Source: a virus. Taken from it: DNA of 42,066 nucleotides. The DNA is taken from IMG/VR virus record IMGVR_UViG_3300036851_000630, positions 1 to 42,066 of that record; one strand, 5' to 3'. The notes beneath the pieces were generated by a model. That model was not told where the DNA came from and did not search any database. It saw only the letters and a program-made list of their open reading frames with translations. A program made the position numbers and the translations under genes. Position 1 is the stretch's first letter. Each line of letters begins with the position of its first letter. Below are positions 962 to 35,974 of this stretch, piece after piece.

Positions 962-972
962 GACAATCTGTC
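962..972. promoter_or_regulatory. GACA palindrome box 1 (GACAATCTGTC)
   Basis: An exact copy of the dispersed 11-bp palindrome GACA-R-N-Y-TGTC, in the control region between terS and the early promoter. The bases after it (GAGCCGT) are also found after the box at 8505, so those two share 11 bases beyond the inner palindrome. It is placed where a repressor could act on leftward transcription of terS. The binding protein is inferred, not shown. Confidence 0.6.
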
Positions 973-1349
973 GAGCCGTCGCCCCGAACGCAACCCGTAC
1001 TGGCGCGCGTTTGGGCTGATCGCTATCGTGGGGGCCCCGGCGTCTCGGACACCGTTCGCCGGTGCGCGCCAGCCAGGGCGCGCGCTCACTCAACGGGATG
1101 ATCGTCGACGTGCAACTTCCAAAATCGGGGCAACGCCGGCCTGCGACCCCGTCCGGCCTGATCCACGTCGCGTCGCGGGTGACACCCGCGCGGGGGCTTG
1201 AGCTCCCGTAAACGACAGAGGGGCCGGCTCACCGTCTGGTAGACCCCCCAGCCGGGCCATGCCCCCCGATCGACTCCTGCCACTGGCACCGCCCCCGCGG
1301 TGCGTGTCCCCTACTCGCATCTCGAAGATAGCCGTCCTCCCCCAGGCCG

Positions 1350-1376
1350 GCAACTGGCGGGGTCACGCCCAGTTGC
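1350..1376. promoter_or_regulatory. 8-bp dyad upstream of the early promoter
   Basis: GCAACTGG (1350-1357) and CCAGTTGC (1369-1376) are perfect inverted repeats separated by 11 bases, with further CG pairing inside. There is no T-run on either strand, so an intrinsic terminator is unlikely. It lies about 50 bp upstream of the -35 box, a plausible activator or repressor site, and differs in sequence from the GACA palindrome. Confidence 0.4.
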
Positions 1377-1379
1377 GAA

Positions 1380-1416
1380 TTAAGGGGGCTTTAATACCCC
1401 ATAAATACTCCCTTAA
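1380..1416. promoter_or_regulatory. AT-rich island with TTAAGGG/CCCTTAA inverted repeat
   Basis: TTAAGGG (1380-1386) and CCCTTAA (1410-1416) are 7-bp perfect inverted repeats flanking an AT-rich core. It ends 10 bp before the -35 box of the early promoter. The core also allows a short GGGG/CCCC hairpin. It could be an operator, an UP-like element or a melting site for replication. No DnaA box is evident. Confidence 0.35.
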
Positions 1417-1426
1417 GACCCGGTAC

Positions 1427-1455
1427 TTGACTTCTCGACGCCTCCAGTGTAGGAT
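1427..1455 (+). promoter_or_regulatory. Sigma70-type early promoter
   Basis: TTGACT (1427-1432) and TAGGAT (1450-1455) are separated by exactly 17 bases. They match five of six and four of six positions of the bacterial housekeeping consensus. Transcription would begin near 1462, about 20 bases before the GTG start of the first early gene. This is the only clear sigma70 promoter I found and it drives the whole rightward unit. Confidence 0.65.
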
Positions 1456-1482
1456 GGGGTGTCCCGAACCTCGTGAGGCCTT

Positions 1483-1806
1483 GTGCCCAAGAAGACCGTT
1501 GACATCCGGATCGAGTTCCCCTCCCAAGGTGAGACGTACAGCCGCGACGAGTACGGCGTGTATGAGTACAGCACCTACCCGCGTAGCAGCGTTCTCGCTG
1601 GCCAGGAGCGTCGCAGCTTCCTCGACTCATTCGAGACGCTCGAGCAAGCGCAGGCGAAGTACCCTACCGCCGATATCTCCGGCTGCGGGTATCACGTGCC
1701 GTCGCTCGGCCATCTTCCCGACGAAGACGACGACCACGTCGCGAGCCGCGAAGAGCAGTACGGCCGCTACCTCGACTGCGGCCCACAGAATTGGGACGAT
1801 CGCTAA
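1483..1806 (+). CDS. Hypothetical early protein
   Basis: A 107-residue acidic protein that opens the early unit. The GTG at 1483 is preceded by GAGG at 1475-1478 and lies just after the promoter, so the leader is only about 20 bases. The sequence is soluble with many aromatic residues; the C-terminus ends in DCGPQNWDDR. I do not assign a function. It ends in TAA directly against the ATG of the next gene, so the two are translationally coupled. As the first product after infection it could be a host-takeover or regulatory factor, but that rests on position only. Confidence 0.65.
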   Translation: MPKKTVDIRIEFPSQGETYSRDEYGVYEYSTYPRSSVLAGQERRSFLDSFETLEQAQAKYPTADISGCGYHVPSLGHLPDEDDDHVASREEQYGRYLDCGPQNWDDR

Positions 1807-2268
1807 ATGCGCTACCTCATCGACACCCCATGGGGCCGCTTCACGCGCAAGACGAACCGCGAATACGAGTTCGTCGTGATCGCCTGCGGCCAGAGCGAGT
1901 TGCACATCCGCTAGCGCGCCGAGCAGGAACGCGTCGAGCTCGAGAACCGGCGCGCCATCTACCAGGAAGGCATCCGCACCGGCAAGATCCCGCTCGGCGC
2001 ATACCAGTTCTACCGCGTCGAGAAGTACGTCGACTACGTCGCCAGCATCGACGTGCGCCTCGTCGACTGGCAGCCGAACCTCGACAAGCGCCTTGCCCGG
2101 AACGCCGAGCAGATCCGCACCAAGAAGGGCCAGACGATCGGCTGGTGCGGCCGCCGCGAGCTCGCCGATGCCGAAGCGCGCCGCGCGATCCGCTCGGGCT
2201 ACGTGAACGTCCACGTCTACAGCGTCGTCGATCACCCGCCGTACTTCGTCGGCCAGGAGGTCGCATGA
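1807..2268 (+). pseudogene. Hypothetical early protein interrupted by an in-frame TAG
   Basis: The frame starts at ATG 1807, directly after the preceding stop, and runs 153 codons to TGA 2266-2268, but codon 36 (1912-1914) is TAG. The protein sequence on both sides looks continuous and coding: ...SELHIR, stop, RAEQERVELENRR.... Downstream residues are charged and aromatic and the gene ends in an ATGA overlap with its neighbour, as an intact gene would. The TAG is one base from TGG (Trp) and CAG (Gln). The options are an amber mutation, a sequencing error, amber suppression, or two shorter products with restart at GTG 2053. TAG is used as a normal stop by several other genes here, so a genome-wide code change is not supported. 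Confidence 0.6.
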
Positions 2269-3171: not shown

Positions 3172-3721
3172 CACACGCATCGGCACGCACACGGACGTGG
3201 AAGTCTTTCTGCGTGCGGACGGCATCTTCTACGCGACCGTCGACGCGTTGCTGCTCACCGACAAGACGCTTGCCGGCCTGAAGAAGCGGATCGACAACTA
3301 CCGGCGAGCGAACACGCGCACCCGGGCCGCCGCGGTACAGGTTGCCGTGCTCGTGCTCGGCAGCGAGTGGGTCGACAACGACACGCGGCGGCCGACGGCG
3401 ACGTGGCATCGCGGCCTCTTCGGCGGCGTGAACGCGCACACCGGCGTTATCACCATCGTCAACGCCGGCGGCCAGAAGGAAACGATCGACGACGCGGCTT
3501 GGTTCTTTCGGGCCGACAGCGCCGAAGCGATTGCGCGAGTGCAGGTGCTGATCGAGGAACGGATTCGTACTGAGGCAGTGGCTGCCCTGGCGAAGCGCCG
3601 GCTGCAGGACGAGCTCACAACGCACGCTCGCCACGTGGGGGGGCACTACGACTCACGAGGCACCGAGAAGGCCGCCAAGGTCGAGGACGAGCTGATTACG
3701 GCGCTCGAGGCGAGGCCGTGA
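3164..3721 (+). CDS. Hypothetical early protein (185 aa)
   Basis: I chose the ATG at 3164 because GGAGG (3153-3157) stands seven bases upstream; a longer frame from 3134 has no such site. The protein has a beta-strand-rich N-terminal half (to about residue 110) and a helical C-terminal half rich in Glu, Arg and Ala. No motif is recognised. It is coupled to the next gene by a GTGA overlap at 3718. Confidence 0.6.
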   Translation: MPDTRIGTHTDVEVFLRADGIFYATVDALLLTDKTLAGLKKRIDNYRRANTRTRAAAVQVAVLVLGSEWVDNDTRRPTATWHRGLFGGVNAHTGVITIVNAGGQKETIDDAAWFFRADSAEAIARVQVLIEERIRTEAVAALAKRRLQDELTTHARHVGGHYDSRGTEKAAKVEDELITALEARP

Positions 3722-3996
3722 AGAGTCCACCCATCTATACCGACGTGCGGCACCAGCGCACGGCCGAGCTCTTCGCGCGCTACGGTATCAAAAGCGGGAA
3801 GGATCTAGACGGCTGCACGCTCACCGAGAAGCAGCGCGCGGCCGTCTGTATGTATCTGGGGCTCGACGGGCTCGCGCCCACGTCGATGCCGTCGATCGCG
3901 ATCGTCACGAAGACGACCAAGCAGGCGGTCTACCAACTGCTCACGGCCGCCCTGCGCAAGGTGCGGACCTATCGCTACCCGACGAAACCCGAATGA
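3718..3996 (+). CDS. Sigma-70 region 4-like DNA-binding protein
   Basis: A 92-residue protein whose C-terminal 50 residues read like region 4 of a housekeeping sigma factor: LTEKQRAAVCMYLGLDG, then a helix-turn-helix with TTKQAVYQLLTAALRKVR. This matches the family pattern of a GLDG turn, a recognition helix and ALrKLR at the end. Regions 1 to 3 are absent, so it cannot be a complete sigma factor. Known small phage proteins of this design redirect host RNA polymerase or bind -35 elements. Here it lies mid-early unit, which fits a switch to late transcription. The start is GTG in an overlap with the previous stop. The role is inferred from homology and position. Confidence 0.65.
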   Translation: MKSPPIYTDVRHQRTAELFARYGIKSGKDLDGCTLTEKQRAAVCMYLGLDGLAPTSMPSIAIVTKTTKQAVYQLLTAALRKVRTYRYPTKPE

Positions 3997-5485: not shown

Positions 5486-5504
5486 GGGCTCCCTAGGGCG
5501 GCTA

Positions 5505-5656: not shown

Positions 5657-6199
5657 ATGACAGCCACGTTGAAGGAACGCGCCCTCGTCGAGCACGAGGC
5701 TCTGCGGCTGAAGAATGAGCAGTATTACGCCGAGCGTGCCGAGCGGGAACGCACCGAGATCGTCGCGGGATGCGCATCCTTCGTGCGGACACAGCTGCAG
5801 CTCGACGGGCCGTTCAGCTTCGTCATCGAGGGCTCGATGGTGTACTTCGAGGCGGAAGGTCTGCCCCTCGGCTACAACACCAGCCATGCCGACTACCGCT
5901 ACCGTGAACAGCTGTACCTCGGTCTCACCTGTCCCGCAGCGGCGACCTCTGATCCGGCCGTGCATCACGACCTGATTTACGAGCGCTTCGACGGTCTTGC
6001 GGACCTCGGCAACCTCTTGAGCCAGCCGCTCATCGGCAAGCAGCCCTGCTGGGCCTGCCAGGTGCGTGACGAGGAACGGGCCGACAGCCTGAGGGCCGCG
6101 ACGCTAATTCCGCGGGCCCCGACGCCGCTCGAACGCATCGGGGAGGCGCTCGACGAACTCGTGCGCCAAGCCGTCGCCGACTACTACGCGCAGGAATGA
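5657..6199 (+). CDS. Hypothetical early protein (180 aa)
   Basis: The ATG at 5657 follows GGGAGG (5646-5651) five bases upstream, a strong site. The 180-residue product has a charged N-terminal helix (about residues 5-45), a central domain with a lone CWAC near residue 133, and a helical C-terminus. It overlaps the ATPase start by four bases, so the two are co-translated and may form a complex. I do not recognise the family. Confidence 0.6.
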   Translation: MTATLKERALVEHEALRLKNEQYYAERAERERTEIVAGCASFVRTQLQLDGPFSFVIEGSMVYFEAEGLPLGYNTSHADYRYREQLYLGLTCPAAATSDPAVHHDLIYERFDGLADLGNLLSQPLIGKQPCWACQVRDEERADSLRAATLIPRAPTPLERIGEALDELVRQAVADYYAQE

Positions 6200-8076
6200 A
6201 GCTCGCGATCTCACCCACGCTCAAGCTGCCGACCGACGTCGTCACGTCGACGGTGATCGTCTACGGCGGCAAGGGCATGGGCAAGACGAACTTCGGCAGC
6301 GTGCTCGCTGAAGAGTGCGACGCCGCCCGAATCCACTACGCGATTGTCGACCCGATGGGCGTGTGGTGGGGCCTGCGCCATAGCCCCGACGGCAAGGGCC
6401 GCGGCGTCGAAGTCCTGATCCTGGGCGGGATCCACGGCGACATTCCGATCGAGCCGACGGGCGGCGCGGTCGTGGCTGACCTGGTGGTCGACGAGGCCGC
6501 GAACGTCATCGTCGACATTAGCCGTCGGCCTGACGGCACGATGTGGGCGATCGCCGAGCGCGTCCGCTTCGTGCGCGACTACTGCAAGCGCCTGTATCAG
6601 CGCCAGGGCGAGAAACGCCGGCCGATCCTGCAGTTCATCGACGAGGCCGCGCGCTTCATTCCCCAAATCATTCACAAGGACGACTCCGACGTCGCCGCGT
6701 GCATGGGCGCGATCGCGGTGCTCGTCGAAGAGGGCCGGAACGTCGGTGTCGGGGTCGTACTCATCACCCAGCGCAGTGCGAAACTCAACAAAGACGTCGC
6801 CGAGCTGGCGGACTGCATGATCGCGTTCCGCACCGTCGGCCCGAATAGCCGGCGCGCGGTGCTCGACTGGCTGGGCGAGCACGTCGAGAAGGAGAAGATC
6901 AAGGGCTACGATCAGCAGGTGCGCGCCCTGCCTCGCGGCACGGCTCTCGTCGTCTCGCCAGGCTGGCTCGAGTACGAAGGCATTGCGCCGATGCGCGCGC
7001 GCCGCACGTTCGACTCAAGCGCCACCCCGAAGGGCGGCAAGCAGCTGCGCGCGAAGGGGCCTGGCGCAAAGCCAGATCTCGTGAAGTATCAGCAACTCAT
7101 GGCCGCGACGATCGAGAAGGCAAAGGCCGAAGATCCCAAACTGTTGAAAAAACGGATCTTCGAACTCGAGCAGCAGGTAAAGCGGGAGCAATCGCGTGGG
7201 ACCGCCCGCGAAGTGCTCGGCATCGCTAAGAACCTCAAGGTCACGCCCGAGCGCATCGTGAAGGTGCCGGCGCTGTCGGCCGCCGATCGCCATCTGATCG
7301 CCCGGGCCCTGATGGTGCTCAGGCGTGGCGAGCAGGTTGGCGAGCGACTGCACGTGCTCGAGGCCGCCTACCGGCAGGTGGGACCGCTGTTGTCGACCGT
7401 ACGCGCGCTGCTCGAGCGCCTACAGCAAGTGAAGGCACTCGCCCCACTGAAGGTAACGATCACGAAGGAAATGATCGACGCGACAAAGGCAAAGGCTGGG
7501 GCCTTCCTCGATTTTGCCGGCGGGGCCGAGATCGAGCACGCGCTCATCAAGAAGGTCAACGCCGACGTTGATCGTATGCTGCGGCCAGCCACCGACGACG
7601 GCGTGAAACTGAAACCCGGCGCACGCCGCATGGTCGAGCAACTTGCCATCTGGTACCCGCGCCGGCTAACGAGCGGCCAGCTGTCGATGCTCGCGATGGT
7701 GAAGCGTGGCGGCACGTTCTTCTCCTACCTGTCGAACATCCGCCGCGCCGGCTATCTCGACGAGCAGGACGATACGTTTACGCTCACGCCGGCGGGTCAC
7801 GTGGCGGCCGGGCCGGTCGACCGACGCCCGACGTCGACGCCCGATCGGGTCGCCCTGTACATGAAGCGCCTGAAGCCGGGTGCGCAACGGATGCTGCAGG
7901 TGCTCGTCGAGCAGTACCCGGACCACTGCACCGGAGCTGATTTGGCGGCCGCAGCGCAGGTGAAGCCCGGGGGGACGTTCTTCTCGTATCTCAGCAACCT
8001 CCGGACGGCGGGACTTATCGATGAACGGAACGGCAAGATCTCGGCCGCCGCCGACCTTTTCATGGAGCGGACATGA
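6196..8076 (+). CDS. HerA/FtsK-superfamily ATPase with tandem C-terminal winged-helix repeats
   Basis: A 626-residue NTPase. The Walker A motif is GGKGMGKT (residues 24-31) and Walker B is ILQFIDEA (D149, E150). A later LITQRS segment fits the sensor region of HerA/VirB4-like motors. A coiled middle part (about 310-440) links to two related repeats of about 60 residues near 473-540 and 556-620. Each contains KPGA(R/Q)RM and the identical GGTFFSYLSN. The repeats look like winged helices, so the motor is probably tethered to DNA by its own tail. No NurA nuclease partner is seen next to it; the late DnaQ-like exonuclease (40574) is the only other DNA-end enzyme. The likely role is phage DNA translocation, recombination or replication in place of a classical helicase. 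Confidence 0.75.
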   Translation: MKLAISPTLKLPTDVVTSTVIVYGGKGMGKTNFGSVLAEECDAARIHYAIVDPMGVWWGLRHSPDGKGRGVEVLILGGIHGDIPIEPTGGAVVADLVVDEAANVIVDISRRPDGTMWAIAERVRFVRDYCKRLYQRQGEKRRPILQFIDEAARFIPQIIHKDDSDVAACMGAIAVLVEEGRNVGVGVVLITQRSAKLNKDVAELADCMIAFRTVGPNSRRAVLDWLGEHVEKEKIKGYDQQVRALPRGTALVVSPGWLEYEGIAPMRARRTFDSSATPKGGKQLRAKGPGAKPDLVKYQQLMAATIEKAKAEDPKLLKKRIFELEQQVKREQSRGTAREVLGIAKNLKVTPERIVKVPALSAADRHLIARALMVLRRGEQVGERLHVLEAAYRQVGPLLSTVRALLERLQQVKALAPLKVTITKEMIDATKAKAGAFLDFAGGAEIEHALIKKVNADVDRMLRPATDDGVKLKPGARRMVEQLAIWYPRRLTSGQLSMLAMVKRGGTFFSYLSNIRRAGYLDEQDDTFTLTPAGHVAAGPVDRRPTSTPDRVALYMKRLKPGAQRMLQVLVEQYPDHCTGADLAAAAQVKPGGTFFSYLSNLRTAGLIDERNGKISAAADLFMERT

Positions 8077-8488: not shown

Positions 8489-8504
8489 CCTTGGCGATCG
8501 CCAC

Positions 8505-8583
8505 GACAGTTTGTCGAGCCGTGGACGCCCACGGCTGCTCGTGACAACTTGTCCCCTGGATCTCGAGTAACCGACAGATTGTC
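8505..8583. promoter_or_regulatory. Triple GACA palindrome array upstream of the HTH gene
   Basis: Three exact boxes lie in the 119-bp gap before the helix-turn-helix gene: GACAGTTTGTC (8505-8515), GACAACTTGTC (8543-8553) and GACAGATTGTC (8573-8583). Centre spacings are 38 and 30 bp. The last box ends 24 bp before the GTG start. This is the densest cluster in the window and the usual place for autoregulation by a phage repressor. I did not find a clear -35/-10 pair in the gap; a weak TTGTCC...TACACC pair overlaps the last box. Confidence 0.65.
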
Positions 8584-8607
8584 CTTCGCTGCAGAAGGCG
8601 CTACACC

Positions 8608-8946
8608 GTGAGCTACCGGAACGACCCGGTCCGACAGGCCCGGGCGCACCGGCAACGCGCCTGGTGGGCGTTCCGGCGCAAGGTGGGCCTCCTCGACGAC
8701 ACCCTGCTCGCCGAGCTACTCGGCGTGAGCACCCGGTCCATCCAGCGCTATGAGACCGCCGCGAGACCGCCGGCGTGGTACCAGGCCGCCCTGCTCGGGC
8801 TCGTCGAGACGTTCCCCGACCGGGTCTTCGCCCGACGTGGCAAGCCCAGGAAACCGAAGCTCAATCGGTGGGGCAACGATGTCACGCCTGAGCCGTCGAA
8901 CCCCTACTACGCGACCAGGTGGACGACAGGCGGCAAGTTGCTCTAG
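8608..8946 (+). CDS. XRE-type helix-turn-helix regulator, candidate GACA-box binder
   Basis: A 112-residue basic protein. Residues 30-55 read LLAELLGVSTRSIQRYET, a standard helix-turn-helix of the Cro/CI-XRE type. The C-terminal third is Arg/Lys/Pro-rich (GKPRKPKLNRW) and may add minor-groove contacts. It is the last gene of the early unit, starts with GTG, and is separated from the preceding gene by three GACA palindromes, the only such array in the window. An 11-bp palindrome suits a dimer of this fold. Its stop shares a CTAG with the convergent spanin-like gene. Whether it is a lysogeny-type repressor is open: no integrase is present. Confidence 0.65.
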   Translation: MSYRNDPVRQARAHRQRAWWAFRRKVGLLDDTLLAELLGVSTRSIQRYETAARPPAWYQAALLGLVETFPDRVFARRGKPRKPKLNRWGNDVTPEPSNPYYATRWTTGGKLL

Positions 8947-9491
8947 GGCAGCAGTGGAAGGCGAAAGAGGCGGCAGCCGAGACTGAAATTGGCGGCGAGC
9001 AACCGGCCGCCATCATGAAACACGGTCGGGCCCAACCCCACAAACAGTCCACACCGATAATCGCGCACCGTCAGCTGGCGCTCGAGCTGGCGCGTGAGCC
9101 GCTCAGCCTCGGCCTCGGCATGATCGGCGCGCTGCTGACAGGTCCGCACGACGAGTGAGCAGCCCTGGAAGGCCGTCGAATCTTGGCGCGCGATCTCGAC
9201 GAGCACCGGCACGGTGTCGACCCGCGCCCCACGCGCGAGCGCTGCGCGGAGGGAATCGGCCGCGCTGTGCGCCGCGGCCGCCAAGACAGAATGTCGCCGT
9301 TCGACCGCGGCCAGCTTGTCGCGATAGCGCACCAGCGTCGCATGGATCTTCGCCATCGCGCGCGAGCTGTCGCTGACGACGCGATCCTGATGCAAGAGAT
9401 AGCCGTCGATCTTGCCGAACACGTAGAAGACGAGTCCGACAGCCATCGCCCCGGCGATCAGGATTCCCGTGATTCGCCCCGTGGCCTTCAT
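8943..9491 (-). CDS. Rz-like inner-membrane spanin (candidate)
   Basis: A 182-residue protein with one N-terminal transmembrane helix (ILIAGAMAVGLVFYVF, about residues 8-25), then a long charged helical region (about 35-140) and a short hydrophobic tail. This is the layout of i-spanins, which link inner and outer membranes at lysis. The ATG at 9491 overlaps the lysin stop (ATGA); a longer start in the lysin gene is less likely. It is the last gene of the late unit. No separate o-spanin lipoprotein is seen nested within it. The stop overlaps that of the convergent early unit. Confidence 0.55.
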   Translation of the reverse strand: MKATGRITGILIAGAMAVGLVFYVFGKIDGYLLHQDRVVSDSSRAMAKIHATLVRYRDKLAAVERRHSVLAAAAHSAADSLRAALARGARVDTVPVLVEIARQDSTAFQGCSLVVRTCQQRADHAEAEAERLTRQLERQLTVRDYRCGLFVGLGPTVFHDGGRLLAANFSLGCRLFRLPLLP

Positions 9492-26554: not shown

Positions 26555-27351
26555 CGATTCCTCGTCGTCCGGTGCTGTTTGATGATGCGGTGGTCGAGCA
26601 CCGCGCCGCTGCGCGCGCGCTCGCCCGCCGCAGTCGCTTCACTGAGGTAAAACTGCAGCAGCCTCGCCGGGAACTCCTTGTTCATCGCCGCCTCATGCCG
26701 CGCCATGAACGCCGCAAGCTGCCACTTGAGGCAGTGCCCGTAGACCGTCGGGATCAGGATCTCCTGATCGAGCGTCTCGAGGCGCTCGTCGTCGAACTCG
26801 GGCGGCTCGGGGATGTAGGCGACCGTGATCGACTCCACCGCATCCCACAGCGTGCCGATGCCAGTCGGGTTGACCAGCGGCGTCAGCTGGAAGCCGCTCA
26901 CCGTCGCCACGAGGCCGTCGCCGGTCCCGAATTGCGCCTTCTTCGCGATCGGCAGCCAGCGCACCGGCACCCGCTGGTGCGCCGTCGTGAGGGTCGCCCA
27001 GATCGCGATGATCTGCAGCGAGTCGGCCGGCAGCGTGTAGTCGCCCTGCGCAACCAGTGGACTCGCGAGGTAGGCTACCCCATCGGCGCGGCCGACGGCA
27101 ATCGCGTGACCATCCGAGCCGTCAGCGACCGCATAGGGAATCCCGTCCGGTCCCACGGCTGCCAGGGCGTTCGATTCGAGCAGCAGCTCAACCGACAGCC
27201 GATCCTTCAGGTCGTCGGCGAGCTCCTTGTAGTAGACCCGGTGCCGCTCCGACAGATAGCCCACGCACGAGCGGTTCGAGTGCCGCTCGCGCGTGAACGC
27301 CGGATGCTCATTCCGCGCATCGAGAATAATGTCGCGAACGAGCAGGTTCAC
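26551..27351 (-). CDS. Probable head-tail connector protein
   Basis: A 266-residue protein beginning MNLLVRDIILDARNEHPAF. The first helical region, a beta-strand middle and a C-terminal helix pair (YGHCLKWQLAAFMARHEAAM) resemble podovirus head-tail adaptors. It lies between the small DUF6496-like protein and the fibre genes. The call is contextual. Confidence 0.5.
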   Translation of the reverse strand: MNLLVRDIILDARNEHPAFTRERHSNRSCVGYLSERHRVYYKELADDLKDRLSVELLLESNALAAVGPDGIPYAVADGSDGHAIAVGRADGVAYLASPLVAQGDYTLPADSLQIIAIWATLTTAHQRVPVRWLPIAKKAQFGTGDGLVATVSGFQLTPLVNPTGIGTLWDAVESITVAYIPEPPEFDDERLETLDQEILIPTVYGHCLKWQLAAFMARHEAAMNKEFPARLLQFYLSEATAAGERARSGAVLDHRIIKQHRTTRNR

Positions 27352-27539
27352 CGCTTGCCCTTGAAGCGGAACCGGCGCTTTGGCTTCGGTTTCGGCTTCA
27401 CGTAACGGCCGGCGCGGCGCTCTTCGTCGAGCCCGATCGCGATCGCCTGCGCCCGGCTCTTCACGATCGGTCCCTTCTTCGAACCCGAGTGGAGCGTCCC
27501 GGCCTTGAACTCGTGCAGCGTCCCTCGGATACCTGGCAT
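27348..27539 (-). CDS. DUF6496-like small basic protein
   Basis: A 63-residue protein starting MPGIRGTLHEFKAGTLHSG and continuing with QAIAIGL, the signature of the DUF6496 group found in many phages and bacteria. The tail is very basic (KPKPKPKRRFRF). I chose ATG 27539 because GGGAGG lies a few bases upstream; a longer frame from 27857 crosses the previous gene. Function unknown. Two GACA boxes lie directly upstream. Confidence 0.7.
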   Translation of the reverse strand: MPGIRGTLHEFKAGTLHSGSKKGPIVKSRAQAIAIGLDEERRAGRYVKPKPKPKRRFRFKGKR

Positions 27540-27560
27540 CGCACCCTCCCTCGAGGTACG

Positions 27561-27596
27561 GACAATCTGTCCACAGGATCCGGCCGACAACTTGTC
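27561..27596. promoter_or_regulatory. Pair of GACA palindromes in a late intergenic gap
   Basis: GACAATCTGTC (27561-27571) and GACAACTTGTC (27586-27596), 25 bp centre to centre, both exact. They occupy most of the 70-bp gap (27540-27609) between two late genes, a gap that is unusual because most neighbours here overlap. Binding could block or pause late transcription (stoperator-like). No -10/-35 pair is evident. Confidence 0.6.
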
Positions 27597-27609
27597 GTCT
27601 ACGAGCTGC

Positions 27610-27912
27610 TCACGCCTTCTCGATGATCGTCGATACGTGCACCCGGTCACCGAGTGCCAAGTCGCGTGCCTGGGCCTTCGGCACTTCGACGTCGAACCGC
27701 CGTCTGTAGCTCGGACTCGGCGCGATCTCGCCCTTCGTGTGCGTCTTGAGCTTGGGCGGCTTGGCTTCGTCCTCGAGCTCAATGCGCGCAATGTCCTTGC
27801 GGTCGTAGTGCTCGGACACGCCCACCACCTTCCCGGTGCGCGTCTTCCGGTGCCCACCGTCGCCGCGCAGCTGGCGGATCCGATCGTGCAGGGGATCCTT
27901 AGTGCTATGCAT
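27610..27912 (-). CDS. Hypothetical late protein (100 aa)
   Basis: A basic 100-residue protein with a Lys/Arg-rich first half and strands toward the end (FDVEVPKAQ, DRVHVSTIIEKA), suggesting a small beta-barrel. It lies between the capsid-proximal genes and the GACA pair. No motif is recognised; it is probably a minor head or connector component. Confidence 0.5.
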   Translation of the reverse strand: MHSTKDPLHDRIRQLRGDGGHRKTRTGKVVGVSEHYDRKDIARIELEDEAKPPKLKTHTKGEIAPSPSYRRRFDVEVPKAQARDLALGDRVHVSTIIEKA

Positions 27913-27921
27913 CGTGCCCTC

Positions 27922-28464
27922 TTACTTGTTCGGGTTCGCGTACCCGTAGCGCGCCAGGATCCGCTTGATGGGCTCGCGGCCTCCGTCGGGTCGACCGTAC
28001 TCCGCCTGTGCTATCTGCTTGAGCGCCGCGTCGGCCGCCTTCTTGGTCATCTTGTCGCCCTTGGCGGCGGTCGCCTCGCGATTGAGCTGGCGGATCTGCA
28101 ACTTGTCGCGCTCGAGCGCGGCGTTCGCCTGCGCGATCGCTTCCGTTGCCGCAGCCGGCTCGACCGCAGGACCGAAGCGCCGACCCTCGATGTCGGGCAG
28201 CACGTCAGCCACTTCCTGCTCACCATCGGCACCGCCAGTGATCGCCTGACCGATGTTGCCATCGTCAAGCTCGGTGCCCGCTTCACCCGCCGGGGGTGCT
28301 GTCGGTTGCGTCGCCATCACCGGCGGCTCGCTGCCCTGACCCGTCACCAACGGACCGTACTTGATCTTCTGGCCGTGGCCCGGCAGGTCCGTCTGGATGT
28401 TGTCGGGGTTCGCAATCTTCCCCGTGTCCTGGTCGACCCATCGGTTCCCCGTGGGTGCGGTCAT
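27922..28464 (-). CDS. Hypothetical late protein (180 aa)
   Basis: A 180-residue product with a disordered, Gly/Pro/Thr-rich N-terminal half and a helical C-terminus rich in Ala, Lys and Gln (about 105-180). AAGGAG lies seven bases before the ATG at 28464, strong support for the start. It overlaps the upstream frame by 182 bases, far more than any other pair here. Confidence 0.6.
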   Translation of the reverse strand: MTAPTGNRWVDQDTGKIANPDNIQTDLPGHGQKIKYGPLVTGQGSEPPVMATQPTAPPAGEAGTELDDGNIGQAITGGADGEQEVADVLPDIEGRRFGPAVEPAAATEAIAQANAALERDKLQIRQLNREATAAKGDKMTKKAADAALKQIAQAEYGRPDGGREPIKRILARYGYANPNK

Positions 28465-29047
28465 CGCTCGGCTCCTTCGTGAGTGTGGCAGTTACCTGTT
28501 CCAGTGCGCCGCCCGAAACGTTCCGATAGAACTCGAAGGCGACGTCGCGGACAAAGCCCGCGAACTCCGGATTATCGTACATCTCGTCTTCGGCCTGCGC
28601 CGCCGCGAGATCGTCCTGCGTCGCGGCGCGGGCTGCTTTCTTGAGCTCGAGCTGATACATCGCTTCGCCTTGGCGCAGCTGCTCAAGCATCGCCTGCTCG
28701 CCCCATTCCGCCCGCTCATACGAGCGGATCAGATAGAGGCCGGCGGCCATGTACTCCGCCTCCCACCAGCTCGCAATGCGCCGCTCGAGCTCTTTGCGCG
28801 GCCGCTTCCACAGCCGTCCGAGGCGGTAGCGGCCCGCCTCGCGCCGCAGGTAGTCGGCCCGCGTCCCACTCTTCTGCTCGTGAATCCACCACAGCGCCGG
28901 CCGGGTGATGTGCCCGTCGTGTTCGACCGCCGGCGTGAAGCTCACCCGAAAGTTTGGGTTGATGCGTTTGATCGCTTCCAGCAGCGATACTGCGGGGCTG
29001 TTGGCTCCCCGCAGCATCGCGACCAGAAGGACGTCTGCTGCGCTCAC
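28283..29047 (-). CDS. Hypothetical late protein with suspicious 3' end
   Basis: A 254-residue frame directly after the capsid gene. Residues 1-190 are well formed: a helical protein with WWEAEYMAAGLYLIRSYERAE and an acidic helix near 150-170. The last 60 residues are Pro/Gly/Arg/Asp-rich and lie antiphase to the next gene. A TGA in another frame overlaps the next gene's ATG at 28464, exactly where a normal ATGA overlap would stand. The true product may therefore end near residue 195, with a one-base frame change in this sequence. Position suggests a head-tail connector. Confidence 0.5.
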   Translation of the reverse strand: MSAADVLLVAMLRGANSPAVSLLEAIKRINPNFRVSFTPAVEHDGHITRPALWWIHEQKSGTRADYLRREAGRYRLGRLWKRPRKELERRIASWWEAEYMAAGLYLIRSYERAEWGEQAMLEQLRQGEAMYQLELKKAARAATQDDLAAAQAEDEMYDNPEFAGFVRDVAFEFYRNVSGGALEQVTATLTKEPSDDRTHGEPMGRPGHGEDCEPRQHPDGPAGPRPEDQVRSVGDGSGQRAAGDGDATDSTPGG

Positions 29048-30520
29048 CTAGGCCTGGGCTTCGCTGAGCCCGCTGATTTTGCCGTGCTTCTGCGGGTCAG
29101 AGTTGCCGAGCTCCATGATCGTTCGGCCGTAAGCGAAGAACGCATCTTGGATCCCTGCCCCGATCGCCACCTGACGCCAGATCGCGCCGGTCGTGTCGTC
29201 CCACTCGTAGCCTTCCAAGTGGTAGCGCTTGAGCACCGTGCGATCGAGCATGAACGCCCGGCCGGGGAACAGCTTCGACACGGCCCGGAACTCGACCTGT
29301 CGATCGCCCAGCCAGATTTTGATACCGCGCGTCCCAGCCCTGTTGTTCTCGGGCGAGAGCAGCGCGCCGAATCCGGCGAAGCCGCGGATCTGGACGTAGA
29401 TGTTGCGGAACACGGCCCGCGTCACCAGCGCGTGCGTTGCGCCATCGCCGCCGCCCAGCTCGACGATGTCGTCGTTCAGCTGCATGAACGCTGTGTCCTT
29501 CGCGAGCCCCGAGTACGGGGCGGCCGACCCATCGAGCGCCTGTGACTTCCACTCGGGGTAGGTCGTGCGCGGGATGTTCTGGAACGTCTCGAGAATCGAG
29601 CCGTCGTCCACTTGGCCCTCGATGCCGATCATCTCGACTTCGACGCCCTGGAACGGCGCGTTCGAGCCAAGATCGTCGCCCTTGAAGACGTAGTCGTTGT
29701 CGACTACGCCCACCGGGATGTGATCGACGGTGAGGATGCCCCCGCCGCCGTTGCCGGCTTTGTTCACCGACAGCACGGTGCAGGCCTCCCCGTTGTTGCG
29801 GAGGTTCGACCCGTCGGGGTTGGGCCCGAACACGAGCGACGTGCCGCGCCGGATACCGGGCAGCCAGCCCTTCGTGTCGTTCGCGAGCCCGTAGGGGGCG
29901 TCGATCGGAATCGTCGCCGGTGGGCCCGCCGCCGGTGCGCCATCGACCCGGCACAGAATCCCTGAGCCGTAGCCGATCGCTTGCCGGTCGAGATCATCGC
30001 GCAGGCTCTTCTCGGTCTTGGTGAGCTCGGCTTCCGCCCAATCGGCGAACGCCGCCTTCGACCGCATCGCCTGCTTCATCACGTCGTAGGTCATCTGCGC
30101 AACCGCCAACGTTTTCTTCAGCTTCACCCGGCCGTTGACGAACGTCGGGTTACCGGGCACGGGCAGGAAGCCGCGCTCGTGGCGCGCCCCCACTGCTTCG
30201 TTGTACCCGAACATATTCGAGAGCTCGACGTAGCGGCCGTGCGGACCTTCCCGCACGTTCGAGTTCTGCTCGAAGATGTCAAGCACGTCGCTGTGCGTCA
30301 CCACCGAATCGAAGAAGGCGTCATCGCTGACGACCTTCAACATGGCATCGGCGGCCGCCGTATCGAACGTCGCCCCGATCGCGAACAGCGCGAGCAGTCG
30401 GGGATCGACGTGGGTGCTGGTCAGGGCCATTGAGCCCGGATCGCCCCCGGAGGCAATCGACCAGATGGCCACGAGGAGCAGGGCCAGCACGGTCGACCAC
30501 CGGAAAGTGCGGAGAGTCAC
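29048..30520 (-). CDS. Major capsid protein with a possible hydrophobic N-terminal leader
   Basis: The core from ATG 30430 (460 residues, MALTSTHVDPRLL) has the mixed alpha/beta, aromatic-poor sequence of HK97-type capsid proteins and follows the scaffold gene. However, the best ribosome binding site, AAAGGAG (30529-30535), serves a GTG at 30520 in the same frame. This adds 30 residues with a hydrophobic stretch, STVLALLLVAIW. Translation from 30520 must pass through the ATG, so a leader-bearing form is expected unless the leader is removed or the internal start dominates. A capsid with a membrane-anchor-like leader would be unusual. It ends in TAG against the next start. Confidence 0.75.
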   Translation of the reverse strand: MTLRTFRWSTVLALLLVAIWSIASGGDPGSMALTSTHVDPRLLALFAIGATFDTAAADAMLKVVSDDAFFDSVVTHSDVLDIFEQNSNVREGPHGRYVELSNMFGYNEAVGARHERGFLPVPGNPTFVNGRVKLKKTLAVAQMTYDVMKQAMRSKAAFADWAEAELTKTEKSLRDDLDRQAIGYGSGILCRVDGAPAAGPPATIPIDAPYGLANDTKGWLPGIRRGTSLVFGPNPDGSNLRNNGEACTVLSVNKAGNGGGGILTVDHIPVGVVDNDYVFKGDDLGSNAPFQGVEVEMIGIEGQVDDGSILETFQNIPRTTYPEWKSQALDGSAAPYSGLAKDTAFMQLNDDIVELGGGDGATHALVTRAVFRNIYVQIRGFAGFGALLSPENNRAGTRGIKIWLGDRQVEFRAVSKLFPGRAFMLDRTVLKRYHLEGYEWDDTTGAIWRQVAIGAGIQDAFFAYGRTIMELGNSDPQKHGKISGLSEAQA

Positions 30521-30545
30521 TGAGTGCGCTCCTTTGCGCGGCGCG

Positions 30546-31748
30546 CTAGAGCTTGCCAGCGCGCAGCAGCTTGATCCGTTCGCCGAGATCGCGCGGCATC
30601 TTCGTCTTCTTGATCCCGGCCGGCCGAACCCCTGTGCCGGTGCCACCGCCCCGGACTTTGCGGAAGCGGTCGACGTTCTTGGCTCGGTCAGCCATCTGCT
30701 CGCGCGTGAGCCCCTCCCTACCGGCCTGGCCCTTGACGCCTTTCTTGGCCTTCGCCGGCGGAGCTCCGGTGAACTTCCGGACAAGCGGCTGAATCAGGGT
30801 GGCGAGCTCAGTCTTTGTCATGTACGGCGACTGACGGGCCTGGATGCGGCGCTCCATCTCCGCCACGATCCGCGCACCCGCGAGCTGTTCAAAATCGGCC
30901 CCGTCATCCGCATCGAGGGCGAGCGAGGCGACGAGGTCGCCGACGACGCCCTTCGACCGATCGATGAACTCGGCTTTCGTCGAGTCCTGGTCGATCGCAT
31001 CGTAGGCCTGGGCGAGCTGCTCGCGCGATTCCTTCGCGGCCAGCTTGCCTCTCAGCTCGAGCTTCTCTTCATCGGTCTCGTCGATCTTGAGCGCCTTGAT
31101 GAGGGCCTTGGTGGCCTTGGGGTTCTGCAAGATCCACGATTCGACGAACTTCGTCGCGAACTCCGGCTTCTCCACGGCCACGAGCCGCATCGCGTTCAGC
31201 GGATCGGCCTGGTAGAAGCGCGCAATCGTCTCGAGCTCGCGCGCCTGATCCAGCCGTTGGAGCACCCCATCGAGCTGCTGCGACCGCTTCACGTGACCGT
31301 TGATCGCGTCACGGAACTCTTGAGGTACACCTTCCAGCTTCAGCACGGCCCGGCGCTTGCCAGCGCCCGGGCTTCCGTCATCGAGGGTGGGAATGTCGAC
31401 GTCGAACTCGCGTTCGCGTCGGTCGGCCGGGGTGTCGTCGCCCTCTTCGGCCTCCTCGGCCTCGGCTCCCGTCTCCTCTTCTTCCTCGCCCGCGGGCGTC
31501 TCGTCGGTTTCCTCGCCCTCGGCCTCTTCGGCTCTTGCCGTCTCGTCGCCCTCAACCTCTTCTTCTTCGGCGTCGTCGCCGTGGGTCTCCGCCTCTTCCA
31601 GCGACCGCTCACCCGCCGCGGGCTTGTCTTCGTCAGGCTGTTCGCCGACCCCGTCCCGAAAATCCCGCAGCCGCTCCTTCAAGGGAGACGGAGGAGTGGG
31701 GACGATTTCGACCTCTTTGCCCTCTTGACCTTCGCCGTCACCAAACAT
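30546..31748 (-). CDS. Scaffold protein
   Basis: A 400-residue protein just upstream of the capsid gene. Residues 40-120 are extremely acidic (Glu/Asp runs), the middle is helical (about 130-320), and the last 70 residues are basic (AKAKKGVKGQAG, MPRDLGERIKLLRAGKL). An acidic body with a basic capsid-binding tail is the standard scaffold design. A TAG stop lies 25 bases before the capsid's GTG. Confidence 0.8.
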   Translation of the reverse strand: MFGDGEGQEGKEVEIVPTPPSPLKERLRDFRDGVGEQPDEDKPAAGERSLEEAETHGDDAEEEEVEGDETARAEEAEGEETDETPAGEEEEETGAEAEEAEEGDDTPADRREREFDVDIPTLDDGSPGAGKRRAVLKLEGVPQEFRDAINGHVKRSQQLDGVLQRLDQARELETIARFYQADPLNAMRLVAVEKPEFATKFVESWILQNPKATKALIKALKIDETDEEKLELRGKLAAKESREQLAQAYDAIDQDSTKAEFIDRSKGVVGDLVASLALDADDGADFEQLAGARIVAEMERRIQARQSPYMTKTELATLIQPLVRKFTGAPPAKAKKGVKGQAGREGLTREQMADRAKNVDRFRKVRGGGTGTGVRPAGIKKTKMPRDLGERIKLLRAGKL

Positions 31749-31770
31749 CAGGACTCCCGCGTGAGAGTGA

Positions 31771-31795
31771 GGGCCGGCCGAGCGTGCACCGGCCC
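31771..31795 (-). terminator. GC-rich hairpin between late genes (attenuator or processing site)
   Basis: GGGCCGG and CCGGCCC (31771-31777 and 31789-31795) can form a 7-bp stem with an 11-nt loop in the 63-bp gap between the 243-residue protein and the scaffold. There is no T-run, so full termination is unlikely; it could be an attenuator or RNA-processing site that sets scaffold levels. Confidence 0.3.
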
Positions 31796-31811
31796 ACCGC
31801 CGTCAGCCTGT

Positions 31812-32543
31812 CTACCGCGCGACCTCGAAGAACGCCTGCATATGCACCAGGCCGCCCGTCGTGGTCTTCGCCGTCGTCAGCCGCAGGTAGTTGCCGCTCC
31901 GGATGGCGTTCAGCGCCGTCGCGAACGACAACCGCCGCACGCCGTTCGCGCTCGAGAGCGGGAACGAGATCGCGACGTCCATCGTCACGCCGGTGTACAC
32001 GTCATTCTCACCGATCGCCGGCACGATGGTACCGGCGTCCGTCCCGCCGAGCACCGACGTCACAACCGCCTGGACCGCGAGCAGCCGCCCGTTAAACGCG
32101 ATCAGCTCCGCGTTGTCCGACTGCTCAGCCGTCACGAACGACCCCTGCAGATCGAGCTGCTCGATCACGCCGTGGGGCGAATCGCGGCGGAGGTCGGTCA
32201 CCGACGTGATGTTCGAGCCATCGGTCACGACCTTGGCGATGAACTCCGAGTTCACGCCGATGTCGGCGATCGTCGGCTTCGCCGCCCCCAGGGTCTTCTC
32301 GATCTTCTGCAGCACGCCGTTCGCGTCCACGTACAGATAGGCGTCCTTCGACGCCGTGATCGCGATCGTCGAACCCGACACGACCTTTTCCACGATCGGC
32401 ACGGGCAAGTTACCCGAGCCGACGCGCACGAATCCGCCGTCGTAAGTGGCCGTGAGGCCCGACGCCGGCTTGCGGACGACGAGGCCGAACAGCACGCCTC
32501 GATCAGCTCCGCTCAGGAGATACGATCTGTTGGCACGTTCCAC
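31812..32543 (-). CDS. Probable head decoration or fibre protein
   Basis: A 243-residue beta-rich protein between portal and scaffold. Many short strands (YDGGFVRVGSGNLPVP, AYLYVDANGVLQKI) and a Thr/Val-rich composition fit a capsid-surface or fibre protein. GTG at 32543 with GGGAGC upstream. No known motif; the role is by position. Confidence 0.5.
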   Translation of the reverse strand: MERANRSYLLSGADRGVLFGLVVRKPASGLTATYDGGFVRVGSGNLPVPIVEKVVSGSTIAITASKDAYLYVDANGVLQKIEKTLGAAKPTIADIGVNSEFIAKVVTDGSNITSVTDLRRDSPHGVIEQLDLQGSFVTAEQSDNAELIAFNGRLLAVQAVVTSVLGGTDAGTIVPAIGENDVYTGVTMDVAISFPLSSANGVRRLSFATALNAIRSGNYLRLTTAKTTTGGLVHMQAFFEVAR

Positions 32544-32586
32544 GGTCTGTTGCTCCCTGCGCTACCGGTCGGCCCGGCTTGCGCGA

Positions 32587-34950
32587 TTAGGTATGGAGCG
32601 CGGCGGTCGCGCGAGGATCCGACTCGCCAGGAGCGCCACGCCCGGCCTCGAGATCGGCACCCCGGGGAGCCTTCTTCTCGCCACCGGCGAATCGCTCGCC
32701 GGCCTGCTTCCCGTTGCCACCGTTCCCGCCACCAGGGGCGGCACCGCCGCCTGCTAACGATGCAGCACTGCCCGCAGCAAACGCCTGGGCTTGGGCCACT
32801 GGGGCCGTCAGGCCAACTTGCCGGATCTGCTCTTGCTGCAAGAGGATCTCATGCATCCGCACGTGGGCACGCATCGACGCCTGAACGTTGGGCGGTGCAT
32901 TACGGTACTCCACACTCTGCTGCCGGCGCTTGTGATTCAGCAGATGCGCCGGGTGATCGTGCTCCGGCAACACCGGCGGATACCCGCCGAGCAGCATCTC
33001 GAGATTCTCCCGCTCAGCCATCGCCCACGCTGGGCCGCCAGGACGCGTGAGGCGCGCGAGATCGGGATACCCGAGCAGCTCGACAAAGGTCTCGGGCGGA
33101 ATCATAGGGAACGCGGCCGCGAGCGAGAGCAGCCGGTTTTGCTTTTCCTGCCGCGTCTCGAGCACCATCGACTCGGGCAGGGGGAAGGCGTGCACCGTGC
33201 CGCGGAAGAGCTCGGGCTCAACGGCGATGAAGTCCCAACCGTTGTCCTCGCCGGACAGCGAGAAAATCCGCGCCGAGTCCATGACAGCCGACAGGATGCC
33301 GATCATCTTGACCGAGTAGCGCGCCCACGCGTAGCCGTGCTTGCGCAGCGTCGCGCCCCAAGCGCGATCGGTGTCGAAGCGTACCTCACGCTGCAACTCG
33401 CCCGATGGATCTGTCGTGACAGGGAGGCCCTCGGACCCGAGCGGCTGGCTGCCGAGCATCTGCATCCAGTTCTGCAGCAGGTTCGCGAGATCGACCGAGG
33501 CGCGCGGCAGCTCGCCGGCGGCCATGCGCTCGAGCGGCGCGCGACCGTTGGTGTCGGTGTACTCAACCGACGCGCCGGGCTTGTTGAGCTGCTCGTCGTC
33601 TTCTTCGATGCTCGCCTGGCGTTTCTTCAGGATGATGGGCTGCTCGTTGAAGTCGACGGCATCCATCGCGCCGCCGAGCCGGCGATTGATCGCACGGTTG
33701 ATCGGACTGATGATCTCGAGGTCGGATGTCCCCTCTTGGCGGAACGGGTACTTCACCAGGTCGAACGCTTCGAACGGCATCACCGCTTCTTCATGCCGCC
33801 CTTCGACCCAGTACGGATTCAGGTCGTCGTAGCAGACTTCGTCGCCCGCGCAAATCGTCAGCCGGCCGCGCGACAAAATCTCGTGCCCGGGCTGGTCCCG
33901 ATGCCAGAGCTCGTAGACCATCGCCATGTCGCGCACGCTCACTTCGGTCAGCCGCGTGATACCGAGTGCGCCGGTGCCCTTCCCCGGCATCCCGTAGTGC
34001 GTGCCATACTGCAGCTTGAGCTCGAGGACGTCGTCGAACGTCAGGCCCTCGGGCTCGACAGCGACGCCCCAGCGTTCCTCGATCTCTTCGACGTGCATCG
34101 GGTACGCGTGGCAGTACCAGGGCTTTTTGTGGAACGGGACGGGACTGTGCGGCGTGATGACGCCGACGGAGGGAACAATGACCGTTTCGAGATCGCCGAG
34201 CCGATCGCGTGATGGCGGCCCGAACTTGAGGCCCTGCTCGCCGTCCTGTGCTGGTAGGAAGACCGGCAGCCCCGTCTCGGGATCGACGAGCGGCGCACCA
34301 GCCGGCCCGGGCGCGAGCTCGTTGAGCAGGTGCGGCATGAACTCGCCGTCGCCCAGGTGCAGATAGGGCGCGTCAGAAAGCTCGCGGCGGAAGATGCCGT
34401 CGCCGGTGAGCAGGCTCACGACGCTCGGCCCGTGATAGTCTTCGGCGGGTCCGAGATCGGGATTCCACACCAGCTTCGCGATCCCGCGTGCCGAGGCGAT
34501 CACCCAGCCGTACAGGTCGAAGACGGCCTCCGGCATATCCATCCGCCGCCAGCAGCTCTTGAACACCGGCTCCATCACCTGCGCGAGCCGCGCGTCGATC
34601 TCGTCGGGCGTTGCCGGCAGGTAACCGATGCCTGGCGGGTTCTCGGTCAACTTCGAGAGGGTGAGCTTGTAGTAGTGCGCCACCCAGTTGAAGACGGGGT
34701 AGCGCCGCCAGCGCTCGTCGTCGACGGCGAAATACGCCGAGAGATCGACGAAGTCATTCAGGCCCTCGATGTATATATCCCACTGTCGGCCCGACAGCAT
34801 CCGCACGTTGTCTTCGACCTGCCGCCACCACGGCCGGTAGGCGTCATGCCAGTCGCGCCAGCAGCGTTCCTTCACCCACTGCAGGATCTCGGTGGGCTCT
34901 TCCCGCTCGAGGAAATCGGGAATCTTGGTGCGGAGCTCGTCGCGGGCCAT
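32587..34950 (-). CDS. Portal protein
   Basis: A 787-residue portal, larger than most. The N-terminal region WRDWHDAYRPWWRQVEDN ... LSGRQWD is typical of podovirus portals, which form the DNA channel at the packaging vertex. A long central region and Gln-rich helices near 720-760 follow, then a Gly-rich tail. I prefer ATG 34950, where TGATG couples it to the previous gene. It lies between the packaging genes and the scaffold/capsid block, as in standard phage order. Confidence 0.85.
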   Translation of the reverse strand: MARDELRTKIPDFLEREEPTEILQWVKERCWRDWHDAYRPWWRQVEDNVRMLSGRQWDIYIEGLNDFVDLSAYFAVDDERWRRYPVFNWVAHYYKLTLSKLTENPPGIGYLPATPDEIDARLAQVMEPVFKSCWRRMDMPEAVFDLYGWVIASARGIAKLVWNPDLGPAEDYHGPSVVSLLTGDGIFRRELSDAPYLHLGDGEFMPHLLNELAPGPAGAPLVDPETGLPVFLPAQDGEQGLKFGPPSRDRLGDLETVIVPSVGVITPHSPVPFHKKPWYCHAYPMHVEEIEERWGVAVEPEGLTFDDVLELKLQYGTHYGMPGKGTGALGITRLTEVSVRDMAMVYELWHRDQPGHEILSRGRLTICAGDEVCYDDLNPYWVEGRHEEAVMPFEAFDLVKYPFRQEGTSDLEIISPINRAINRRLGGAMDAVDFNEQPIILKKRQASIEEDDEQLNKPGASVEYTDTNGRAPLERMAAGELPRASVDLANLLQNWMQMLGSQPLGSEGLPVTTDPSGELQREVRFDTDRAWGATLRKHGYAWARYSVKMIGILSAVMDSARIFSLSGEDNGWDFIAVEPELFRGTVHAFPLPESMVLETRQEKQNRLLSLAAAFPMIPPETFVELLGYPDLARLTRPGGPAWAMAERENLEMLLGGYPPVLPEHDHPAHLLNHKRRQQSVEYRNAPPNVQASMRAHVRMHEILLQQEQIRQVGLTAPVAQAQAFAAGSAASLAGGGAAPGGGNGGNGKQAGERFAGGEKKAPRGADLEAGRGAPGESDPRATAALHT

Positions 34951-35216
34951 CAGGGACTCCACCCGACGAGGCGCACGTTGTCATGGAACTCGCAGGCCGG
35001 CGAAAGATCGGGCGTCGATCCGTCATAGGCGCACACCAGCGACGGCTCGACGGTACCGTCCGCTTTGATCGTGTGGTCGGACAACGAGACAGGGCGGCCA
35101 CATTTCGGGCATGAGGCGTTCGCCGAGCGAACGCCGCTTTCAGGCAGTGTCCCACGCCAGCGGCCCGGTGTCTTGAGCCACGGATCGTCAGCCGGGGTTT
35201 CGAGAAGTTCGATCAC
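34950..35216 (-). CDS. Small zinc-binding protein
   Basis: An 88-residue protein with CPKCG near residue 36, a later isolated Cys (PSLVC) and the end SPACEFHDNVRLVGW. The Cys/His pattern suggests a zinc-stabilised fold common in phage proteins with a CxFH tail. It overlaps the portal gene start. Function unknown. Confidence 0.6.
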   Translation of the reverse strand: MIELLETPADDPWLKTPGRWRGTLPESGVRSANASCPKCGRPVSLSDHTIKADGTVEPSLVCAYDGSTPDLSPACEFHDNVRLVGWSP

Positions 35217-35593
35217 GAGCTCGACTTCACCGCGCCACGGATCTTCGACGCACCCTGGCTCGCCCCGACCGTCGCCTTCTGCTGGAACTTGTAGAACAGG
35301 AAATCAGTCGGCGTGATGTGTACGTGGCGCGAAGCGGCGGCCGCGATTGCGGCGCTCGCGACGATGACTTCCCAGTCCGCGTCGGCGAGCGTGAGATCGT
35401 TGGAGCCGAGGACGCGTGAATCGATGCTGTTGGCCCCGGTGTTCTTCCAGTCGGCCGAGATCTGGCCCCCAGATTCGGCCATCACGTGCGCGAAAAGGAC
35501 TTTGGGGTCGGCCGAGATCATGAGGACGTCGGCGAACGCGTCGGTCGACGCTGGATCGGCTGCGGGTGTTGAAAAACTGCGGCTGCCGAGCAT
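35213..35593 (-). CDS. Hypothetical late protein (126 aa)
   Basis: A 126-residue protein with Ala/Ser-rich strands and helices (VLFAHVMAESGGQISADW). GGGGAG six bases before ATG 35593 is a strong site. It ends within the next gene by a four-base overlap. It may be a minor head component. Confidence 0.55.
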   Translation of the reverse strand: MLGSRSFSTPAADPASTDAFADVLMISADPKVLFAHVMAESGGQISADWKNTGANSIDSRVLGSNDLTLADADWEVIVASAAIAAAASRHVHITPTDFLFYKFQQKATVGASQGASKIRGAVKSSS

Positions 35594-35644
35594 CGATTGC
35601 TCCCCGGGGAGAGGGCTCGAGCCGCCGCCAGAATATAGGGGGCC

Positions 35645-35974
35645 CTACGGGATTCGCGCCAGCGCCGCCCGTCCCTTGGCCAAGATCTCGTCGGCGATCG
35701 TCCGCCGCCGCTCAGTCGTCATGCGGGGGAACTCTTTGGCGAGCTTCTCCATCACCTTATTGCGTTGATCCTTCAGCCACCGCGCCTCTTCTTTCGCGTG
35801 CAGCTCGTGCTCGGGAAGATCCACCCGGACGAGCTTGGTGGACGGGCCGACAACCTGTCGCTGGCTCGAGGCGGTGACAGATTGTCCCACCGATCGCCGG
35901 CGCAGCTCGCGGAGGATTAAGAGCAGAACGCTGACGTTGGCGAGCCCGACCAGAGTCACGAAGATCCAAATCAT
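35645..35974 (-). CDS. Single-pass membrane protein with cytoplasmic tail
   Basis: A 109-residue protein with an N-terminal transmembrane helix (MIWIFVTLVGLANVSVLLLIL), then a charged helical tail. Two exact GACA palindromes lie in its linker (SVGQSVTASSQRQVVGPS). The start overlaps the previous stop by four bases. It may serve membrane exclusion or lysis timing, but nothing in the sequence proves it. Confidence 0.6.
   Translation of the reverse strand: MIWIFVTLVGLANVSVLLLILRELRRRSVGQSVTASSQRQVVGPSTKLVRVDLPEHELHAKEEARWLKDQRNKVMEKLAKEFPRMTTERRRTIADEILAKGRAALARIP
35849..35886. promoter_or_regulatory. Pair of GACA palindromes inside the membrane-protein gene
   Basis: GACAACCTGTC (35849-35859) and GACAGATTGTC (35876-35886), 27 bp apart, both exact. 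They fall in the unstructured linker after the transmembrane helix, where amino-acid constraint is low. The encoded residues are R-Q-V-V and G-Q-S-V in the same codon phase. Confidence 0.6.

Follow-up and report, generated by a model that had tools for sequence, protein, structure and literature searches.

The best-known operator systems that span a whole genome are those of mycobacteriophages, and the phiC31 repressor reads conserved inverted repeats, palindromic sites that are dispersed through the phage genome. In phage L5 many repressor sites are found genome-wide, in promoters and short intergenic spaces; they are asymmetric 13-mers oriented with transcription and read by a two-domain monomer (PMC9283540). 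XRE-type HTH dimers read GAC-N5-GTC operators. Among them, C-proteins recognize GACTTATAGTC, contacting the bases of GAC/GTC (PMC3758141, PMC4321490), and occupy operators in their own promoters as cooperative neighbouring dimers (PMC3758141, PMC4321490, PMC3695355). M.SsoII and M.Ecl18kI bind AGGACAAATTGTCCT as well, by means of an N-terminal HTH part similar to C-proteins (PMC3695355, PMC3978073).

We analyzed the IMG/VR virus record IMGVR_UViG_3300036851_000630, which exists as metagenome sequence only; the window is the whole record (positions 1–42,066). An 11-bp palindrome, GACA-R-N-Y-TGTC, is dispersed through it. We estimate a probability of about two in three that these palindromes serve as operators for an XRE-type protein that the phage itself encodes (8608–8946), which would autoregulate its gene and occupy predicted early, late and intragenic sites. 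All ten exact copies are 11-bp GAC-N5-GTC palindromes like the operators of C-proteins and M.SsoII-type enzymes, and an XRE-type HTH dimer is the candidate reader here. Three of the sites (the triplet at 8505–8583) immediately precede the gene at 8608; if its product is the binder, they would lie in its own promoter, as the C-protein and M.SsoII-type operators do. However, the C-protein and M.SsoII operators are confined to the promoter region of restriction–modification genes, whereas those of the phage extend over 35 kb, are paired 25–27 bp apart and have fixed flanking palindromes. A sequence-only reading of this DNA had likened the sites to mycobacteriophage stoperators. The likeness is plausible for their dispersed use, many copies of one site being spread through the genome, but it fails for the site itself: the core is palindromic and lacks the asymmetry and transcription-oriented arrangement of the L5 sites (PMC9283540). 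The phage's sites are also fewer than those of L5 and partly intragenic, and repression at them is presumed. Dispersed repressor sites and XRE-type GAC-N5-GTC operators are each already known; what is new, as far as our searches go, is that one genome combines the two and adds a second palindrome element at a fixed offset. If true, this would be an independent genome-wide operator system, in a phage without a near relative among the isolated phage records searched, and a simple model for one small HTH protein possibly controlling early, late and intragenic sites.

Palindromic sites in the window

The encoded proteins identify a tailed phage, with small and large terminase subunits, a P22-like portal and a capsid protein as well as a tail-associated NlpC/P60 protein and a DnaQ-like exonuclease. 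Genes run rightward between 1.5 and 8.9 kb and leftward between 8.9 and 41.7 kb; the gene for the small terminase subunit (73–720) is leftward too. The control region between the two sets carries a promoter-like TTGACT-17-TAGGAT at 1427–1455; sigma-70-like promoters were found neither at the triplet nor across 27300–36300. For positions 1–25000 no near DNA matches to phage records were obtained. The giant 2,841-aa late protein (9941–18466, minus strand), which bears a RadC/JAB-like domain near residues 1479–1575, found zero relatives, and an early 626-aa FtsK/VirD4/terminase-like ATPase (6196–8076, plus strand) has one weak relative among viral contigs (L016, 28%). Pfam scans covering most ORFs yielded no methyltransferase families, and PHROGs gave HNH endonuclease matches only.

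GACA-R-N-Y-TGTC occurs in ten exact copies, while 100 dinucleotide shuffles gave 0.10 on average and never more than 1. We searched for GACA-N(k)-TGTC with k = 0–8 and found only k = 3, in 11 copies (the eleventh is GACAGAATGTC at 9285), with zero copies at gaps 0–2 and 4–8. This repeat outranks every other 4-bp inverted repeat with a gap of 0–12 (11 copies versus 0.41 expected; p = 9e-13, uncorrected for ~3,300 tests). The sequence-only reading had listed the same ten positions, seven of them clustered, and we found both statements to be correct: the clusters have spacings of 25, 27, 30 and 38 bp. A pair scan over spacings of 14–59 bp, allowing up to three mismatches in total, detected pairs at these four distances only and extended that list by one degenerate pair (9285/9310, 25 bp apart, one mismatch each). 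The list was complete for exact copies, but had missed this pair and the flanking palindromes described below. Altogether 10 exact and 2 degenerate copies cover 35 kb, from 962 to 35886 (Table 1).

Six of the ten exact copies are noncoding (one in the control region, three before the HTH gene, two before the DUF6496 gene), although only 3.5% of the window is noncoding in our own gene set; the enrichment relative to this set amounts to p = 3e-7 per site and 8e-4 per cluster. The triplet lies inside a 119-bp gap directly upstream of the ribosome site of the HTH gene. The earlier placement of copies in the control region, before the HTH gene and in linkers holds, whereas the 35849/35876 pair is not intergenic and lies in a linker of the 35645–35974 protein.

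Table 1. Positions and surroundings of the palindromic sites and associated features in the window
Feature	Position	Context	Flanking or midway palindromes
Noncoding control region	721–1482 (760 bp)	between terminase small subunit gene (73–720, minus) and rightward early genes	
Core GACAATCTGTC	962–972	in noncoding control region	GGATCC 951–956
Core GACAGTTTGTC	8505–8515	triplet no. 1, upstream of HTH gene	TGGCGATCGCCA 8492–8503
Inverted repeat GAGCCGTGG...CCACGGC(TG)CTC	8516–8542	between triplet nos. 1 and 2	
Core GACAACTTGTC	8543–8553	triplet no. 2	GATC 8559–8562
Core GACAGATTGTC	8573–8583	triplet no. 3, 24 bp before GTG start	CTCGAG 8562–8567; CTGCAG 8589–8594
XRE/lambda-repressor-like HTH protein, 112 aa (candidate binder)	8608–8946 (+)	GTG start	
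Degenerate pair GACAGAATGTC / GCCAGCTTGTC	9285–9320	25 bp apart	TCGA midway, 9301–9304; GCGGCCGC on left, 9274–9281
Core	17411–17421	proline-rich linker of 2,841-aa late protein	CGATCG 17401–17406; GCGGCCGC 17425–17432
Core	18691–18701	proline-rich linker of 375-aa late protein	CGAGCTCG 18679–18686; CCGGCCTCGAGGCCGG 18702–18717
Core pair	27561–27596	25 bp apart; fills gap before DUF6496 gene (27348–27536, minus)	GGATCC exactly midway, 27576–27581; CCTCGAGG of 27561 core, 27549–27556
Core pair	35849–35886	27 bp apart; linker after hydrophobic N-terminal helix of 109-aa one-helix membrane protein (35645–35974, minus)	CTCGAG exactly midway, 35865–35870; CGATCG outside, 35891–35896

Flanking palindromes and conservation in related contigs

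An alignment of all copies revealed GATC or TCGA at fixed offsets from the core. Each of the ten exact cores is accompanied by one or more palindromes (≥4 bp) with the axis exactly 12.5 or 13.5 bp away from the centre of the core. Against a background of 2.7%, 6-bp palindromes were found at 5 of 19 flank axes located 7.5 bp outside the core (p = 1.3e-4) and at 7 of 19 located 8.5 bp outside (p = 4.2e-7); these p-values are uncorrected for the 23 scanned axes and should be multiplied by about 23. Two flanks share the mid element of a pair, and axes that coincided entered the count a single time. The scan of 23 axes showed no comparable concentration of 6-bp palindromes at other offsets. Since the hexamer CTCGAG is common in the window (73 copies), the flank signal was compared with the frequency of palindromes in the window itself. 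The sequence of the flanks is variable (GGATCC, CGATCG, CTCGAG, CTGCAG, GAGCTC, GCGGCCGC); the mid element stands exactly midway in both kinds of pair and is GGATCC or CGATCG at 25-bp spacing and CTCGAG at 27-bp spacing.

The sequences that first drew attention to the 12.5/13.5 offsets were also those used to test them, and the nearest to independent checks are an additional core in the related contig L017 and a bacterial control. In L017, 6-bp palindromes were present at 4 of 8 and 2 of 9 axes at 7.5 and 8.5, respectively, and the layout also occurs in the relative L002. The control consisted of 410 flanks around identical cores in GC-rich bacterial loci; there, palindromes occurred at these axes at a rate of 0.7–1.5%, which argues that the flanking layout is a property of this phage lineage among the sequences examined. 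Because the flanking palindromes stand at fixed offsets, the predicted operator is a composite of about 31–33 bp. More tentatively, palindromic symmetry itself rather than sequence might be selected at ±12.5/13.5 bp, and the regulator might form an alternating dimer array over core and mid palindromes that is used at genome-wide roadblocks; such a two-symmetry operator, if it is one, is not described in the literature we found. The layout would offer a clean means of finding the regulator's sites in metagenomic relatives.

L017 (15.7 kb) and L002 (4.9 kb) encode terminase and portal proteins (L017 also a capsid protein) 79–90% identical to those of the window. Both are fragments from outside the HTH gene region, and conservation was judged on the late-region pairs that they cover. 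The sequence-only reading had pointed to conserved positions in related phages as a check, and the late-region pairs are indeed kept at spacings of 25 and 27 bp. The 35849/35876 pair is retained at spacing 27 in L017 and L002 despite a diverged linker; at this place L017 carries three cores, spaced 25 and 27 bp, the extra one in a different reading frame. The 27561/27586 pair before the DUF6496 gene is found in L017 at the same place with spacing 25. In the coding copies, which read G-Q-x-V, the third codon specifies Ser, Pro, Val or Ile while the letters of GACA and TGTC stay constant. Letters within the core and neighbouring codons vary and the extra L017 copy sits in another frame, so that, judged from these comparisons, the constraint is on DNA.

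The stretch CCCTATATT followed by GGCGGCG (35594–35660), in the gap before the gene 35213–35593, is likewise kept between the window and L017 and is a possible promoter element. Distant relatives of the large terminase subunit or the ATPase (G003, G007 within its first 40 kb, and G009) were inspected and set aside: the core is not their top inverted repeat. G009, a 46.5-kb contig with a distant ATPase relative, contains CGGTA-N4-TACCG three times (24407, 24435 and 26368, the first two 28 bp apart), possibly another operator system.

The candidate binder and competing explanations

The 8608–8946 protein yields the sole HTH_3 match in the record (8704–8772, E = 4.9e-4, below the curated cut-off); its Pfam matches are sub-threshold and XRE-like. 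An AlphaFold single-sequence model reaches a mean pLDDT of 64, a moderate confidence, with a helical HTH at pLDDT ~82–84. The top fold matches of this model are Aca1, C.Kpn2I, SinR and other XRE repressors, all weak and none reaching E 0.001. The protein had earlier been described as of unknown type; several tools, though sub-threshold in Pfam, agree on a small XRE/lambda-repressor-like HTH protein as its predicted type. Searches of viral contigs, genome contigs and phage records detected no homologues. Some core clusters in unrelated viral contigs (L038, L043, L094, L096, L102, L106, L107) are followed 37–162 bp downstream by the start of a small XRE-like gene; the similarity of these genes' products to the 8608–8946 protein (best phmmer E 0.05 among 336 ORFs) is too weak for kinship. 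We infer that this protein is the likely binder because it is the sole HTH_3-type match, is encoded directly downstream of the triplet, matches the site geometry and has XRE-like counterparts beside the core elsewhere. A second early HTH-like protein (3718–3996, plus strand) shows weak similarity to sigma region 4; its fold model was too poor in quality for use.

In the proposed mechanism, a dimer of the 8608–8946 protein would read GAC-N5-GTC (GACA-RNY-TGTC). To judge from their positions, the three operators in its own promoter would serve autoregulation and the one in the divergent early/late control region would exert control there, while the operators that stand alone or in pairs along the leftward late genes could act as roadblocks or local transcription switches. 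Neighbouring dimers 25 or 27 bp apart would meet over the short mid palindrome, where oligomers may form, and binding would presumably repress or stop transcription.

That the palindromes are a genome-wide regulatory DNA site, as had been proposed, is well supported by the conserved positions and spacings, the noncoding enrichment and the triplet in front of the one gene with a detected HTH_3-type match. A different protein might still read them, either a host regulator or another phage protein such as the sigma-region-4-like HTH protein or the small subunit of the terminase. In favour, the early genes encode a second HTH-like protein and core pairs also occur in many bacterial genomes, some of them probably bound by host proteins; however, the flanking palindrome layout is confined to this phage lineage among the sequences examined and it is the XRE gene, rather than any of the remaining candidates, that has the triplet upstream, and we regard this explanation as unlikely. 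It is hardly credible that the repeat arises by chance or at the protein level, the coding copies representing a repeated G-Q-x-V peptide or repeat-rich coding such as RTX nonapeptides. Four coding copies do share one frame, and by eye the alphaproteobacterial copies spaced 27 bp apart seem to arise inside RTX-like repeats, but the six noncoding copies refute a peptide origin, and the encoded peptide varies, with the L017 copy in another frame.

Partition and replication were considered as further explanations. The sequence-only reading had named partition besides regulation; in such a system a ParB-type or other centromere-binding protein could segregate or condense an extrachromosomal prophage via dispersed centromere-like sites. 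If the 17.4- and 18.7-kb sites are merged and the genome is treated as a circle, the palindromes are nearly evenly spaced (7.2–9.5 kb; p = 2.7e-4, post hoc); the evenness is gone when all seven clusters are retained (p = 0.09), and the triplet occupies a promoter position before the XRE gene. Neither ParB_N nor the ParA-like AAA_31 has a match in the record, which may be incomplete; a partition system is unsupported, and we consider it very unlikely. Quite unlikely, too, is that the sites are iterons bound by a replication initiator. Many viral contigs do carry tandem GACARNYTGTC arrays, often spaced 21–23 bp, inside HTH_36 or initiator-like genes, but such arrays are local (in two other contigs six cores each fall within 190 bp) compared with 35 kb here, and HTH_36 has no match in this possibly incomplete record. 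Integrase and resolvase profiles gave no match in the record either. As integrase, resolvase, ParA, ParB and HTH_36 went undetected, with the same reservation about completeness, a classical integrating prophage appears less likely, as do partition and iterons; with no integrase detected in the record, a role as a classical lysogeny repressor would be speculative. The operator reading, with the 8608–8946 protein as binder, is the one that we prefer.

The same core in other sequences

The core recurs in viral loci L018–L134 (for example L133:5189–6127, L062:1999–2934 and L059:5608–6597) as tandem arrays with spacing peaks at 21–23 and 31–32 bp. Many of them lie inside HTH_36 or initiator-like genes, in phages of widely varying GC content, and are probably in-gene replication origins. 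The core is identical to that of the window, but the arrays in HTH_36 genes are single, local and in-gene, and they represent a different use of the same core sequence. In AT-rich contigs (L023, L040, L053, L085 and similar ones), core pairs ~31–41 bp apart stand directly upstream of genes resembling, by eye, ClpA/B and Hsp20 small heat-shock genes. Many 27-bp-spaced copies are present in L165, L175, L209 and L258, from alphaproteobacteria and relatives; they probably encode RTX-type D-S-L-S-G-G nonapeptide repeats and are a source of false positives for the motif. A conserved pair TGCGACAACTTGTCGTA-N-TACGACAAGTTGTCGCA with 26-bp spacing occurs in L147, L149, L151, L163, L170, L188 and similar loci, mostly from Paenibacillus, Cohnella and Brevibacillus, and looks like a chromosomal operator of some regulator.
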